Virus record (IMG/VR): IMGVR_UViG_3300030060_005518
Location: 1-36,236 of that record
Length of the DNA: 36,236 nucleotides
Source: a virus
Reading direction: 5' to 3' (one strand)
The notes under the pieces are model-generated. The model saw only the letters and a program-made list of their open reading frames with translations. It searched no databases and was not told the DNA's origin. Positions 18,458 to 36,236 of the stretch are shown one piece after another; within the stretch, counting starts at the first letter, position 1; every line of letters begins with the position of its first letter. Made by a program: the position numbers and the translations under genes.

Positions 18458-18489
18458 AGAGCTGACTTTTAACCGAGTCAGCTTTTTTT
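18458..18489 (+). terminator. Rho-independent terminator of the early region
   Basis: AGCTGACT (18460-18467) and AGTCAGCT (18476-18483) pair perfectly over 8 bp around a TTTAACCG loop, followed by seven T (to 18489). It is a clean terminator. Confidence 0.92.
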
Positions 18490-18524: not shown

Positions 18525-18926
18525 ATGAAGATTTTAAAAACATATCACTTTTACGCAGGACATAGAAACAAAGAAGCAGGAGAAAAGTGTGGAAGATTAC
18601 ATGGACATACATATGATGTCAAATGCACATACAAATTTGATAATCTAGACAATGGAATTACAATGTTGTTTTCAGATATTGATTTAATTACTGAGCCAAT
18701 CATAAAACAATATGATCATTATTTTCTTTTGTTTGATCAAGATCCTTTATGTGAGTTGTTTGATCTAGCCAATGAGCCATACAAGAAAATGCCATTTGAA
18801 ACTTCAGCAGAAAACATGGCAATTTGGATCTTTAATGAGATCAGACAGAAACTTCCAATTGTTAAAATAGAATTAGCAGAAACAAAATCATCATCAGTTA
18901 TTTATGAAAAACCATTTAAGGATTAG
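18525..18926 (+). CDS. queD: 6-carboxy-tetrahydropterin synthase (QueD)
   Basis: 133 aa from ATG 18525; the TTG at 18510 belongs to the promoter box. It has the full QueD/PTPS active site: His13 in YAGH, catalytic Cys22 in CGRLHGH with zinc ligands His26 and His28, D64-H65 in YDHYFLL, and ETSAENMAIWIF (the PTAEN block). QueD converts dihydroneopterin triphosphate, the FolE product, into 6-carboxy-5,6,7,8-tetrahydropterin. It is the first gene of the operon and overlaps queE by 23 nt. The modified base made downstream is inserted into DNA by DpdA. Confidence 0.92.
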   Translation: MKILKTYHFYAGHRNKEAGEKCGRLHGHTYDVKCTYKFDNLDNGITMLFSDIDLITEPIIKQYDHYFLLFDQDPLCELFDLANEPYKKMPFETSAENMAIWIFNEIRQKLPIVKIELAETKSSSVIYEKPFKD

Positions 18927-19614
18927 CGAACATTTTTATTCGTTACAAGGAGAGGGAAAGACAATGGGAATTCCATCTGTTTTTTTAAGATTGCAAGCAT
19001 GTAATTTGTTATGTGATAATAAATGGAGATGTGATACAATTGAAGTTTGGATCAAAGGAGAAAAACATACAATTGAAGAAACATTAGATTTGTTTGAAAA
19101 GAAATATGAAAGAAAATTATTTAAAGGATCACATTTAGTAATAACAGGTGGAGAGCCATTGATTCAACAAGATATGATCATTGAATTTTTAAAACAATAT
19201 TATGAGAGATTTTTTTATATTCCATACATAGAAATTGAAACAAATGGAACTATAAATCCAAAAGATGAATTAATAAAGTTAGTCAATTTATTTAATGTTT
19301 CTCCAAAATTAAGTAACGCAGGAATGACAGAAAAAAGGAGAATCAAAGCTGAAGCTATTCATAAATTTAATTTAATTGAAAACAGTATATTTAAATTTGT
19401 AATTGGAGACAATGAAGATTGGAAAGAATTAAATGATACATATTTAAAACCATTCAAGATACGAAAAGAAAAAATTCATTTAATGCCATCTGCTGATGAT
19501 TCTGAGATGTTAAAAAAACATTCTCAATATGTAGCTGAATTATGTAAAAAAAATGTTTTCAATTACAGCAGTAGATTACAAATTGAATTATGGAATAAAA
19601 CCACAGGAGTATGA
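18904..19614 (+). CDS. queE: 7-carboxy-7-deazaguanine synthase (QueE)
   Basis: 236 aa. This radical-SAM enzyme turns 6-carboxytetrahydropterin into CDG. Motifs are SLQGEG (13-18), cluster cysteines Cys33, Cys37 and Cys43 followed by DTIEVW, and GGEP (82-85). The third cysteine is five residues after the second (CX3CX5C), in place of the standard CX3CX2C; QueE proteins with longer inserts before CDTIEVW are known. ETNGTINP and SPKLSNAG are also typical. It overlaps queD at its start and a membrane microprotein at its stop (ATGA). Confidence 0.92.
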   Translation: MKNHLRISEHFYSLQGEGKTMGIPSVFLRLQACNLLCDNKWRCDTIEVWIKGEKHTIEETLDLFEKKYERKLFKGSHLVITGGEPLIQQDMIIEFLKQYYERFFYIPYIEIETNGTINPKDELIKLVNLFNVSPKLSNAGMTEKRRIKAEAIHKFNLIENSIFKFVIGDNEDWKELNDTYLKPFKIRKEKIHLMPSADDSEMLKKHSQYVAELCKKNVFNYSSRLQIELWNKTTGV

Positions 19615-19736
19615 TTGAATTTTTAAAACACTTTTTCGGATTTTGTGGAGAGCCACATTTGAATTTTTGGCATATTTTATGCACTCCTGTTGGTGGTTAT
19701 TTATATTACAAAATAAAAAAGAATAAAAATGGATAA
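19611..19736 (+). CDS. Membrane-associated microprotein, 41 aa
   Basis: The ATG overlaps the queE stop (ATGA). It begins MIEFLKHFFGFCGEPHLNF, then has a short hydrophobic run with Pro-Gly-Gly (HILCTPVGGYLYY), and ends in a basic KIKKNKNG. The hydrophobic segment is short for a full membrane span. No family is recognised. The exact overlaps at both ends support a real cistron. Confidence 0.5.
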   Translation: MIEFLKHFFGFCGEPHLNFWHILCTPVGGYLYYKIKKNKNG

Positions 19737-19803
19737 ATATCAAAAAAGATTATTTGTTTTATATATGCTAATAATAATAATAATGTTAGTGATTGGTTTA
19801 TGA
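19729..19803 (+). CDS. 24-residue single-span membrane microprotein
   Basis: The frame starts MDKYQKRLFVLYMLI and continues as an almost pure Ile/Met/Leu/Val helix to GL-stop. It overlaps the previous ORF by 8 nt and the folE start as ATGA. It is plausible as a coupled membrane peptide, but it could also be only a coupling device for folE. Confidence 0.45.
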   Translation: MDKYQKRLFVLYMLIIIIMLVIGL

Positions 19804-20627
19804 AAATAAAAAAAGTAACTTGGCAAGAAATTTATGAAAGGTTAGCACAATTACCAAAAGGAAAATGTTATGGTATTCCTAGAGGTGGACAGGTTGTAGC
19901 AGGATTAACAATGAACGCAGTTGAAACTCCTGAAGAAGCAGATTTTTTAGTTGATGATCTTATTGATTCAGGTAGAACAGCAATGAAATGGAAAGAAAAA
20001 TACCCTGACAAACCTCTTTGTGTTTTATTTAATAAACAAGAGGAAAGTAATTTAGGTTGGTTGGAGTTTCCTTGGGAAGAAAGTGGACAGAGAGATGCTG
20101 AAGATTCTGTGGCTAGATTATTGGAAGCATTTGGAGAGGACATAAACAGAGAGGGATTGAAAGAAACACCAAAAAGATATGTTAAATTCTTTAAAGAGTT
20201 TTTAAATCCACCAAAATGGAATTGCACAACATTTGAATCAGAAGGTTATGATGAAATTATATTCCAAAACAATATTCCTTTTCATTCTTTATGTGAACAT
20301 CATATTGCTCCATTCTTTGGACATGGAATGATTGCTTACATACCTGATCAGAGAATTGTTGGATTGTCTAAATTAGCAAGGACTTTGGAAACATTTTCAA
20401 GGAGATTACAGAATCAAGAAAGAATAACAATGCAAGTTGCTGATTTTTTAGAGAAAGAATTAAAACCAAAAGCTGTGGCTGTAATTTTAAAAGCAAAACA
20501 TATGTGTATGGAGATGCGTGGAGTTAAAAAACATGATACTTGGACAACAACTTCAGTAATGAGAGGGATCTTTAAAGAAGATCACAAAGCTAGATTGGAA
20601 GTTATGAACTTATATAATCAAAAATGA
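19800..20627 (+). CDS. folE: Phosphoribosyltransferase-GTP cyclohydrolase I fusion (FolE)
   Basis: 275 aa, two domains. Residues about 1-95 resemble a type I phosphoribosyltransferase of the xanthine-guanine (Gpt) kind: VTWQEIYERL at the N-terminus, PRGGQVVAG (27-35), the PRPP loop VDDLIDSGRTA (51-61), and GWLEFPWEE (86-94), close to the end of E. coli Gpt. Residues about 97-275 are GTP cyclohydrolase I: zinc ligands Cys165, His168 and Cys236, CEHHIAPFFGHGMIAYIP (165-182) and HMCMEMRGV (234-242). FolE makes dihydroneopterin triphosphate for QueD. The fused domain could supply GTP from guanine. Both active sites look intact. ATGA overlaps bound the gene on both sides. Confidence 0.88.
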   Translation: MKIKKVTWQEIYERLAQLPKGKCYGIPRGGQVVAGLTMNAVETPEEADFLVDDLIDSGRTAMKWKEKYPDKPLCVLFNKQEESNLGWLEFPWEESGQRDAEDSVARLLEAFGEDINREGLKETPKRYVKFFKEFLNPPKWNCTTFESEGYDEIIFQNNIPFHSLCEHHIAPFFGHGMIAYIPDQRIVGLSKLARTLETFSRRLQNQERITMQVADFLEKELKPKAVAVILKAKHMCMEMRGVKKHDTWTTTSVMRGIFKEDHKARLEVMNLYNQK

Positions 20628-21016
20628 TTTCAGCTCATTTAGGATTGTTCGCAAATTTATTCGCAATGAAAAAATTAATAATATTACATTTTGAAATTGA
20701 AGGACATCATGCTTGGAAAGACGCACCTGAAAACATTTGGTTTCTGTCAAAAGAGCATAGGCATTTGTTTACAATAAGAATTGGAATGAATGTTGAGCAT
20801 AATGACAGAGAGAAAGAAATATTTTTACAACAACAATTATTTCAAGAATATTTAAAAACAAAATATGAAAAAACTCATTTGAATGATTATACATACCACG
20901 ATTTTGGAAACATGAGTTGCGAAGACATAGCTGAAGAAATAATAAAACTTGATGATTCAATTCATTGGGTTGAAGTTTTAGAAGATAACAAAGGTGGTGC
21001 AAGAATTGAAAGATAA
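20624..21016 (+). CDS. QueD-like T-fold protein without catalytic Cys (DpdL candidate)
   Basis: 130 aa from ATG 20624 (ATGA overlap with folE). The domain itself begins at Met15 (20666, MKKLIILHFEIEGHHAW), an alternative start. It follows the QueD plan: a first zinc His in EGHH, an H-R-H pair in SKEHRHLF (cf. LHGH), SCEDIAEEI (cf. PTAENLA) and VEVLEDNKGGARIE. The Cys that lies four residues before the HGH motif in QueD is Leu here, so standard QueD chemistry is unlikely. A QueD-like protein called DpdL was proposed as a CDG decarboxylase in phages (from memory). Because QueC is missing, that activity would fit well. Confidence 0.62.
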   Translation: MISAHLGLFANLFAMKKLIILHFEIEGHHAWKDAPENIWFLSKEHRHLFTIRIGMNVEHNDREKEIFLQQQLFQEYLKTKYEKTHLNDYTYHDFGNMSCEDIAEEIIKLDDSIHWVEVLEDNKGGARIER

Positions 21017-21019
21017 ATT

Positions 21020-21937
21020 ATGAAACTATTTTTAGCAGGAGTCAATGATCAAAATAAATTACAAGCTGTTTACAGAGCAAACCACCCTTACATTTTGAGT
21101 AGTTATTGGGAACACCAAAGAGGATTTCACAAAGAATGGTTACATTGGTATAAAAAAACAAGAGACAAAGGAGCTGATTTTATTATGGATTCAGGTTTGT
21201 TCACTATGATGTTTGGAGCAGGAAGCGATAAAACATATTCAGAAAAAGAATTATTAGATTACACTAATAAATATTTGAAAGATATAAAAGCAATCGGTTA
21301 TAATAATTACATTGTTGAAATGGATGTCCACAAAGTTTTAGGATTACAATCTTTAAAAAGATTCAGAAAGATTTTTGAAAAGGAATATCCATTAGAAAAA
21401 ACAATATTTGTTTGGCATGTTGAAGAAAAAGAATTAGGATTCAAAAAACTTTGTGAGAAATACCCTTACATAGCAATTTCAATTCCTGAATTGAGAATAA
21501 TTTTTAAAGGTAATAGAAAAAGTTTGAGAAACGCAATTAAAAATTTAATAAAGATTGCGAATGATATTAATCCAAACATTAAAATTCATTTGCTTGGTTG
21601 TACTCAAATTAGTTTAATGGAACAAAAAGGTTATTATTCATGTGATTCAACATCATGGCAATCAAGTCAGATGTTCGGAACTTGTTACTATTTTGATAAT
21701 AAGTTAAAGAGAGTCAAAGAAACTACAGATTTTTGGAAACAATATGCTTTGAGAATGGAAGATAAAATTTGGAGATACTCAGACAAAACAAAAGAAGAAA
21801 AATTCAAAAAATTAACAGCTCAAAACTATTGGAGAAACGCATCACTTTGTGCAATGGCATTTTCAAAATTGAATCAACATATAAACAACAGATATTATAA
21901 CTTTGAACAAATCAAAAAATTAAATTATGAAAGTTAA
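21020..21937 (+). CDS. dpdA: DpdA-like DNA guanine transglycosylase
   Basis: 305 aa. It belongs to the TGT-like superfamily: FIMDSGLFTMMFGAG (54-68, like DSGGFQ), NYIVEMDVHKVLG (96-108) with candidate catalytic Glu100/Asp102, VWHVEE (131-136), IHLLGCTQ (189-196) and YYSCDSTSWQ (205-214). This matches phage DpdA, which swaps guanine in DNA for a 7-deazaguanine base; it lacks the C-terminal zinc motif of tRNA TGT that I could find. It follows the CDG-pathway genes and overlaps the ParB-like gene by 11 nt. It protects phage DNA from restriction, by analogy with known DpdA phages. Confidence 0.85.
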   Translation: MKLFLAGVNDQNKLQAVYRANHPYILSSYWEHQRGFHKEWLHWYKKTRDKGADFIMDSGLFTMMFGAGSDKTYSEKELLDYTNKYLKDIKAIGYNNYIVEMDVHKVLGLQSLKRFRKIFEKEYPLEKTIFVWHVEEKELGFKKLCEKYPYIAISIPELRIIFKGNRKSLRNAIKNLIKIANDINPNIKIHLLGCTQISLMEQKGYYSCDSTSWQSSQMFGTCYYFDNKLKRVKETTDFWKQYALRMEDKIWRYSDKTKEEKFKKLTAQNYWRNASLCAMAFSKLNQHINNRYYNFEQIKKLNYES

Positions 21938-22589
21938 AAAAGGATTTACAAAAATTAAAATTGATAAATTAGTAAAAGCAGATTGGAACTATAAAGAAGA
22001 AAATGAAAAGCTATCAGAAAAACTTTTATCTAATATGAAAAGAAATGGACAGATTGAAAACATCTTGATCAGAGAATTGGAAACAGGTTTTTTTGAGGTT
22101 GTAAATGGAAATCATAGATTAGATGTAATGAATAAATTAAAAATTAAAGATGTTCAAGCATACAACTTTGGCAAGATAGGATTACCACAAGCTCAAAGAA
22201 TAGCATTAGAAACAAATGAAACAAAATTTGAAAATGACAGTATTAAAATGGCAGAACTTGTAACTGAATTAACAAAAGAGTTTGACATAAAAGATTTGGT
22301 TGATTCTTTGCCTTACACAATAGATGAAATCAACAACATGAATGATCTTGTTAGTTTTGATTTTAATGAATTTGAAACTGATGAATCAGAGTCAGGTTAT
22401 TTGAAAGAGAGTTTTGGAGATGAAAAGTTTTCTCATAATATAAATTTGAATGTTACTGCTGAAACTTTTGAAAGATGGAAAGAGTTAAAAGAAAAATTCA
22501 CAGATGTAATTGGTTATGAAAATGAATCTAAAGTATTTGAATTTGCTATAATAGAAGCATTGAACATTCCAATGGAATCATTAAATTAA
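21927..22589 (+). CDS. ParB/sulfiredoxin-like domain protein
   Basis: 220 aa. Residues about 8-100 have the ParB N-terminal pattern: IDKLVKADWNYKEEN, LLSNMKRNGQIENILIREL and VVNGNHRLDVMNKLKI (cf. GERR/GHRR box), then IALETNETKFENDSIKMAEL. The C-terminal half is acidic (FDFNEFETDESESGY) and may end in a small helical domain. ParB-fold proteins include NTPases, nucleases and kinases. This gene overlaps dpdA, so a link to modification (targeting DNA or regulating DpdA) is likely, but its activity is not known. Confidence 0.75.
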   Translation: MKVKKGFTKIKIDKLVKADWNYKEENEKLSEKLLSNMKRNGQIENILIRELETGFFEVVNGNHRLDVMNKLKIKDVQAYNFGKIGLPQAQRIALETNETKFENDSIKMAELVTELTKEFDIKDLVDSLPYTIDEINNMNDLVSFDFNEFETDESESGYLKESFGDEKFSHNINLNVTAETFERWKELKEKFTDVIGYENESKVFEFAIIEALNIPMESLN

Positions 22590-35400: not shown

Positions 35401-36233
35401 CAGGAATGGATGCTGCTTTAGGAATCATGAATGAGATGTCAAACTTGGCTGATGTAAAAGCTCAAAATGTTATTAATGGATTAAACAAAGAAAGAGATGA
35501 AGAAATAAAAAAGTTTGAGGAATCAGCAGAGTTCCAAACAATGACAGAGGAAGAAAAAGCAGCAAGAATGGATGAAATCAATTTAGATTATGATGAAAAA
35601 GTAAAAGCAATAGAGTTAGAACAATTTGAAAGAGGAAAGAGAATGGCTATAGCTCAAGCATTAATTCAGGGAGCAATGGCTATCATGAGAATTGCTGCTG
35701 AAGTTCCAAAAGTAGATTTTGGAGTTACAACAGGAATTTTGATAGGTGCTCAGATTGTAATGACAGGATTACAAGTTGCTGCTATTCGTGCTCAGGAATT
35801 CGCAGGAGCTTTAGGTGGAACAATTCCATTGTTAGGAAAAGCTCAAATGGCAGGAGACATAGCAAGAAAATATGCTAATGGTGGTATGGTTTATGGACCG
35901 CCACATTCTCAGGGTGGTGTAAGGTTTAATGTTGGTGGTAGAGTCATGGAGTTAGAGGGTGGCGAAGCAGTAATAAATAAAAGATCAACAGCAATGTACC
36001 GAGATCAATTATCAGCTATCAATCAAGCAGGTGGTGGACAGAAATTTGCAAATGGTGGATTAGTTATGCAGAATCAAATAAGGAGAGATGCTAATGAACA
36101 AAGCCGAATATCTCCTGATGATTTGAGAATGGTAGCAGGTTTAGTAAATAATCAAAAGATAAATGTAACTGAAGCTCAAATAACAGGAACTCAACAAAGA
36201 GTAGCAGTACATGAAAAAAGAGCTAGGTACTAA
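32436..36233 (+). CDS. Tail tape measure protein (TP901 type)
   Basis: 1265 aa. The N-terminus is coiled coil. FAQFESGFTNVLTLM (about 186-200), ALFDIVSAGIPAGESIDFMR, KFGKTTVSELSSAIGAIAPI and GVSYQELLTSMSLLTKGGI are core TP901 tape-measure blocks. Hydrophobic segments near 565-590 and near 1070-1130 fit the DNA-injection role. A C-terminal FANGG/EGGEAV block (YANGGMVYGPPHSQGGVRF, EGGEAVINKRS) is typical of tape measures. By the common rule of about 0.15 nm per residue, a tail of roughly 190 nm is expected (inference). The end of the gene is also present at 1-96. Confidence 0.93.
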   Translation: MADLKKVIDIKIVGTDQIVQLEQAITQAEQKLKNMTKASKDNAGMQKIHVKNIAKTKTELKMLRAERNAEQKNLIANTNAAKQLDGSYNSLVQRNKDLLTKMKATKGGMSSNTKEMKAMKKEYLANNIELKKFDKTIGNNQRNVGNYGGVLGGAREKLAAVGMAVGAAVVAFQAMSKIVGTATQDFAQFESGFTNVLTLMSGDDINRFGDSMQAGAIDVMKEFGLQADDMNTALFDIVSAGIPAGESIDFMREAANLALGGATDLSTAVDGMTSVMNAFSLETDEAAQVSSAFFSAQKFGKTTVSELSSAIGAIAPIANQAGVSYQELLTSMSLLTKGGIKTDEATTALKATMTALMKPSESAKKKFDELGISYGTNALQSEGLMNILGQVSAAAEENADVLTELIPNVRALTGVGSLGTEQLAEYAEMLKVVNSDYGENSSLAEAVKMQQETLQQRLNVVNAEWSAQKIALGEQLKPILMAVLDIFSSMIQNSHQIVAVVKGMTAGLVAYGAVVAAQNVKQKLFNSAIKAASAAKFLYTKGLSAAIVKVKALNAASKANVFLLIASAIIAIGTAMASWIKQMSAAEKAQASIGEATKQANKETQQEIKSVNEALKVAQDKTKSDKERQEAVDLLNKEVDGFNGTLTLETATTQEAINVVEEHTKAIFNNAKAKALQTKADELALAILDEEIKATDEVVGLNNKMAAGIKAAFSTKTYDQILDEKGNKKKAENIVALQKEQDILEEHIKTLTTTNKKKDEVIKKEEKTNEVRKGTLASLRKEVSDLKKAQDNAIVGSTEFEKITIQLNDAKKKLKDTTDSLKDSTKKELTGFALLKDNVAKAKKALEDKIIAGGNAQKEMDALSAANDKLKQKEDELKLAVAGGVTENDKKIASLKEAITQTENQTKLLQDLGATEDEIHASKIDQINAEIALEIEKMNQSQDYYDTGVENITKLRDQMVTLEEDAAANDWDGKMFGPKVIKAIKTTMAGMDAALGIMNEMSNLADVKAQNVINGLNKERDEEIKKFEESAEFQTMTEEEKAARMDEINLDYDEKVKAIELEQFERGKRMAIAQALIQGAMAIMRIAAEVPKVDFGVTTGILIGAQIVMTGLQVAAIRAQEFAGALGGTIPLLGKAQMAGDIARKYANGGMVYGPPHSQGGVRFNVGGRVMELEGGEAVINKRSTAMYRDQLSAINQAGGGQKFANGGLVMQNQIRRDANEQSRISPDDLRMVAGLVNNQKINVTEAQITGTQQRVAVHEKRARY

Positions 36234-36236
36234 TGT
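36138..36236. repeat. Right copy of 99-bp terminal direct repeat
   Basis: Identical to 1-99, carrying the tape-measure C-terminus and the ATG of the 55-aa gene. One copy is redundant on the circular map. Confidence 0.97.

Follow-up and report, generated by a model that had tools for sequence, protein, structure and literature searches.

Which modified base does a phage make when its 7-deazaguanine DNA-modification operon contains FolE, QueD, QueE, and a DpdA-type transglycosylase and no QueC, the enzyme that normally consumes 7-carboxy-7-deazaguanine (CDG)? The operon in question is found in IMG/VR virus record IMGVR_UViG_3300030060_005518, the whole of which (36,236 bases, hereafter the window) was analyzed. 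An exact direct repeat of 99 bases occupies both ends of the record (positions 1-99 and 36138-36236), which probably means a circular assembly and a complete genome of ~36.1 kb, though no circularity flag appears in the tool output. The encoded proteins include a terminase, portal, head protease, tape measure, exonuclease, and NinG-like protein, and the virus is therefore a tailed phage.

The four pathway genes listed in the initial annotation are confirmed by Pfam and phrog profile matches (and by fold in the case of DpdA), and their products carry the key residues. They form a single run on the + strand (18525-21937) and are followed by a ParB-like gene. QueD, the CPH4 synthase (18525-18926, + strand), is recognized by PF01242 (E 7e-23) and phrog_2389 (1e-21), matches solved QueD/PTPS proteins, and keeps the zinc histidines, the catalytic Cys, and the Asp-His motif. 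QueE, the radical SAM CDG synthase (18904-19614, + strand), matches phrog_2076 (2.3e-56) and TIGR04349 (7e-21), and its cysteines C33, C37, and C43 are invariant in the alignment. A QueE alignment of ten sequences proved too diverse to serve as a scanning profile. Two very short ORFs of ~41 and ~24 aa, the second hydrophobic, lie between QueE and FolE (19611-19802). FolE, a GTP cyclohydrolase I (19800-20627, + strand; PF01227 4.6e-64), has a fused N-terminal XGPRT-like domain. This domain and a 130-aa ORF situated between FolE and DpdA (20624-21016, + strand; phrog_17812 9e-17) were overlooked in the original inventory.

The DpdA-type DNA guanine transglycosylase (21020-21937, + strand) is assigned by phrog_887 (3.5e-24). 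A profile built from the DpdA set finds no relative in the PDB by sequence, but a fold search with the AF2 model (pLDDT 92.5) does, the best match being the archaeosine TGT 1j2b (E 1.9e-6). The protein has both the TGT fold and the catalytic Asp residues, with D57, D102, and D209 invariant in the alignment. The next gene encodes the ParB-like protein (21927-22589, + strand; phrog_723 1e-22), a conserved neighbor of DpdA: of the 12 closest IMG/VR relatives, 10 have it after DpdA at 46-67% identity, and one more has a version there that is 22% identical. DpdA is also flanked by ParB-like genes in Cellulophaga phi38:2 and Fusobacterium phage phiFN37. This protein might be a guide for DpdA or a small nuclease. 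PADLOC returned no result for the operon. The initial annotation had also credited the unit with a clean terminator and its own promoter, neither of which is borne out. The sole convincing terminator-like hairpin (18458-18485, + strand; an 11-pair stem and then a T run) is upstream of QueD, with none downstream as far as 23300, and promoter-like matches are not enriched (37 versus 32.4 +/- 5.7 in shuffled sequences).

The claim that no reading frame encodes QueC stands. The PF06508 profile has no match in the six frames of the whole record, and gives matches in 12 of 14 control genomes; the SGGxD[ST] motif is likewise absent from all six frames of the circularized sequence. These scans rule out a QueC concealed in another frame. 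Because the terminal repeat implies a probably complete genome, the absence can be taken as genome-wide, and a contig too incomplete to judge the matter is made unlikely. Thus, this genome encodes neither QueC (PF06508) nor Gat-QueC, one of which a preQ0-type pathway requires. The accompanying view that the phage pathways known so far rely on QueC is out of date: QueC-less phages were noted in 2019, and a 2023 study reportedly described dDG and dCDG together with a predicted decarboxylase, DpdL.

No Pfam family, PF01242 included, matches the 130-aa ORF, which is nevertheless structurally related to QueD. Its AlphaFold (AF2) model (pLDDT 93.5) has E. coli QueD as the best structural match (Foldseek 5.5e-6; Z 13.2, 1.8 A over 105 residues), and archaeosine synthase QueF-like is also among the matches (Z 8.2). 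Identity to QueD is ~19%, and a profile of 120 relatives of the ORF gives a weak end-to-end match to QueD sequences (best E 0.007). The roles of the QueD residues are well established in that family, and the ORF retains only some of them. Residues H29, H45, and H47 align with the zinc histidines, the first two being invariant and the third nearly so, and E120 aligns with the ring-anchoring Glu. On the other hand, the catalytic Cys is replaced by Leu41, which is invariant, and alignments of the family show no Asp-His pair. Other invariant residues are R46, R62, E65, C99, and E100. The lost catalytic residues and the lack of a PF01242 match rule out an ordinary second QueD. Because the window's own QueD keeps the usual motifs, the ORF is regarded as a paralogue with a different job: a divergent zinc T-fold QueD paralogue that is probably a CDG decarboxylase and a DpdL candidate. 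In Chryseobacterium phage MA9V-3 (contig L016, 7452-8330), a single protein combines a DpdL-type QueD-like domain with one that resembles endonuclease VII, and further members of the family carry extra domains.

The genomic context of the family, phrog_17812, is conserved. The ORF is directly 5′ of DpdA in all 12 of its closest viral relatives, FolE is just 5′ of the ORF in each of the ten whose contig extends that far, and QueC is present in none of the 12. Across 184 loci with the family, FolE occurs in 143, QueE in 139, and DpdA in 120. The family and QueC are mutually exclusive. In a profile search of 223 distinct records, confident QueC (a QueC profile score of at least 40 bits) was found in 0 of 166 records with the family versus 22 of 57 without it, in sets that were partly seeded on the ORF family, take no account of kinship, and include many fragments. 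Vibrio phage D479 and the contig of L217, both with the family, gave QueC-like matches that were weak and partial, at 33 and 24 bits. When the QueE-seeded set is taken alone, QueC occurs in 0 of 12 records with the family versus 18 of 38 without it (Fisher p 0.002, kinship ignored).

The family also occurs in cellular genome assemblies, at 26 bacterial and archaeal loci that mostly carry QueD/QueE/FolE as well; a local profile able to find known QueC detected none near any of them. A bacterial metabolic enzyme was considered and rejected: the one locus checked in detail, on an Amycolatopsis chromosome contig, is a prophage with a DpdL-type gene, QueD, QueE, and FolE beside terminase and portal genes, and a capsid gene too. 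The counts of 0 of 166 versus 22 of 57 make a strong comparative-genomics case for a single small QueD paralogue substituting for QueC.

Taken as a whole, the operon seems reasonably likely to make 7-deazaguanine through a QueD-paralogue decarboxylase, for insertion by DpdA as dDG that would resist host restriction enzymes. FolE would convert GTP to H2NTP, which QueD would turn into CPH4 and QueE into CDG. The 130-aa T-fold paralogue would then act in the usual place of QueC and strip the carboxylate from CDG. The resulting 7-deazaguanine, which has no side chain at position 7, would be exchanged by DpdA for some of the guanines in DNA, and the dDG so formed may protect the phage genome. Decarboxylation is proposed because, of the reactions that CDG could undergo with no need for ATP or ammonia, it is the simplest. 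To our knowledge, no T-fold protein has been described as a decarboxylase. For tubercidin synthesis, the enzyme proposed to decarboxylate the CDG nucleotide belongs to the UbiD type (PMC6112128). The initial annotation had predicted CDG, or 7-deazaguanine if a decarboxylase acts; its direction agrees with the present reading, but the dedicated, QueC-excluding QueD paralogue had gone unseen.

The exclusion of QueC fits equally well any other CDG-using enzyme, or a CDG carrier, and several other outcomes must be weighed. DpdA could insert CDG itself to give dCDG, while the QueD-like ORF does something else, such as binding or delivering CDG or tuning the pathway. The lack of QueC in the genome suits this outcome, and dCDG is reportedly already a phage base (Cui et al. 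2023). It was also proposed by Hutinet 2019 that a phage without QueC could carry CDG, with Bipper as a possible case (PMC6884629). A separate, conserved, enzyme-like gene with an intact zinc-site pattern in QueC-less operons nevertheless points to a further step on CDG, and renders dCDG an unlikely product. Conversion of the phage's CDG to preQ0 by host QueC, so that the DNA carries dPreQ0, appears quite unlikely: many bacteria possess QueC, the phage QueD, QueE, and FolE would raise CDG, and in E. coli the DpdA of phage 9g is by itself able to insert some preQ0 (PMC6884629), yet the mutual exclusion of the ORF family and QueC in viruses would be left unexplained.

The paralogue could also be an unrecognized replacement for QueC that adds nitrogen to CDG, yielding ADG or preQ0, or the maker of another new base. 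The exclusion pattern would be the same, QueF-group T-fold enzymes act on preQ0, and the structural match to archaeosine synthase QueF-like is in line with such a role; however, neither in the ORF nor elsewhere in the operon do Pfam and phrog profiles reveal a domain that handles ATP or ammonia, and this chemistry is accordingly held to be improbable. Finally, service in tRNA queuosine or folate/pterin synthesis, in which FolE, QueD, and QueE also function, is scarcely credible, because the genes are linked to a DpdA of the phage type and to a ParB-like gene, and because the 36,236-base window has no tRNA genes.

Decarboxylation of CDG therefore remains the preferred reading of the 130-aa ORF, and the FolE fusion adds a second peculiarity to the operon. 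GTP cyclohydrolase I makes up residues ~97-275 of the protein, and the shortened XGPRT-like domain residues 1-~95 (19800-20084). The N-terminal domain matches the phosphoribosyl transferase phrog_8995 (4e-5) and has no Pfam PRTase match; its PDB matches are XGPRT but weak. Three motifs align with E. coli Gpt: PRGG at the PPi loop, VDDLIDSGRT at the PRPP loop, and WLEFPW at the purine loop. With ~95 residues versus 152 in the full PRTase, the domain is short of full length, the middle segment being deleted. The fusion protein is matched over at least 80% of its length in 33 phage records, including PaMx25, VpKK5, and MMDA13. Further 7-deazaguanine phages have comparable fusions, and in the operon of Synechococcus phage BUCT-ZZ01 XGPRT is encoded by a gene of its own.

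The XGPRT-like domain could recycle the guanine released by DpdA, a connection for which a search of the available literature found no paper. A broader and more doubtful proposal joins both peculiarities. Members of phrog_17812 might be widespread viral decarboxylases of a zinc T-fold type that replace QueC, in which case the QueD fold would host a new chemistry, and XGPRT-FolE might salvage the guanine evicted by DpdA to GMP and then to more 7-deazaguanine, making a closed guanine-to-deazaguanine loop.

The operon represents a complete and compact QueC-less example of 7-deazaguanine modification. The contrast in QueC between records with and without phrog_17812 reduces the prediction of a CDG decarboxylase to a question about one enzyme, and, for hundreds of viruses, the modified base could be predicted from the genes they carry. 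What becomes of the guanine displaced from DNA is a question on which the XGPRT-FolE fusion offers a testable idea. As the type of modification is already known, the operon is a good but not unprecedented example; what it adds is a well-supported extra gene and an unusual XGPRT-FolE fusion.

The dPreQ0 phages Rosebush and CAjan share FolE, QueD, QueE, and DpdA but have QueC, which this phage lacks (PMC6884629). Cellulophaga phage phi38:2 shares QueD, QueE (44-45% identical), FolE, DpdA, and ParB-like neighbors, and differs by having QueC and QueF and no DpdL-type ORF. The QueC-less Mycobacterium phage Bipper and uncultured clone 7AX_2, both noted by Hutinet 2019, resemble this phage in having a DpdA pathway without QueC (PMC6884629). 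Relative to the QueD/6-pyruvoyltetrahydropterin synthase family (PF01242), the 130-aa ORF has the fold and the zinc histidines in common, but not the catalytic Cys or the Asp-His pair.

A further parallel is the dDG pathway. Cui et al. 2023 reportedly described two bases, dDG and dCDG, and put forward DpdL as a predicted CDG decarboxylase; the DNA of Cellulophaga phage phiST is said in the same study to contain dDG. That study is cited in PMC13329287 and PMC11515303. The phiST operon has the order QueD-QueE-FolE-MazG-gp040 and no QueC, and gp040, which matches phrog_17812 over its full length, is a homologue of the 130-aa ORF. phrog_17812 is hence a candidate DpdL family, a link made without a published DpdL sequence. 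The dDG pathway and the present operon have the same FolE, QueD, QueE, and DpdA without QueC, together with one extra small gene, while the XGPRT-FolE fusion and the ParB-like gene are additions of this phage.
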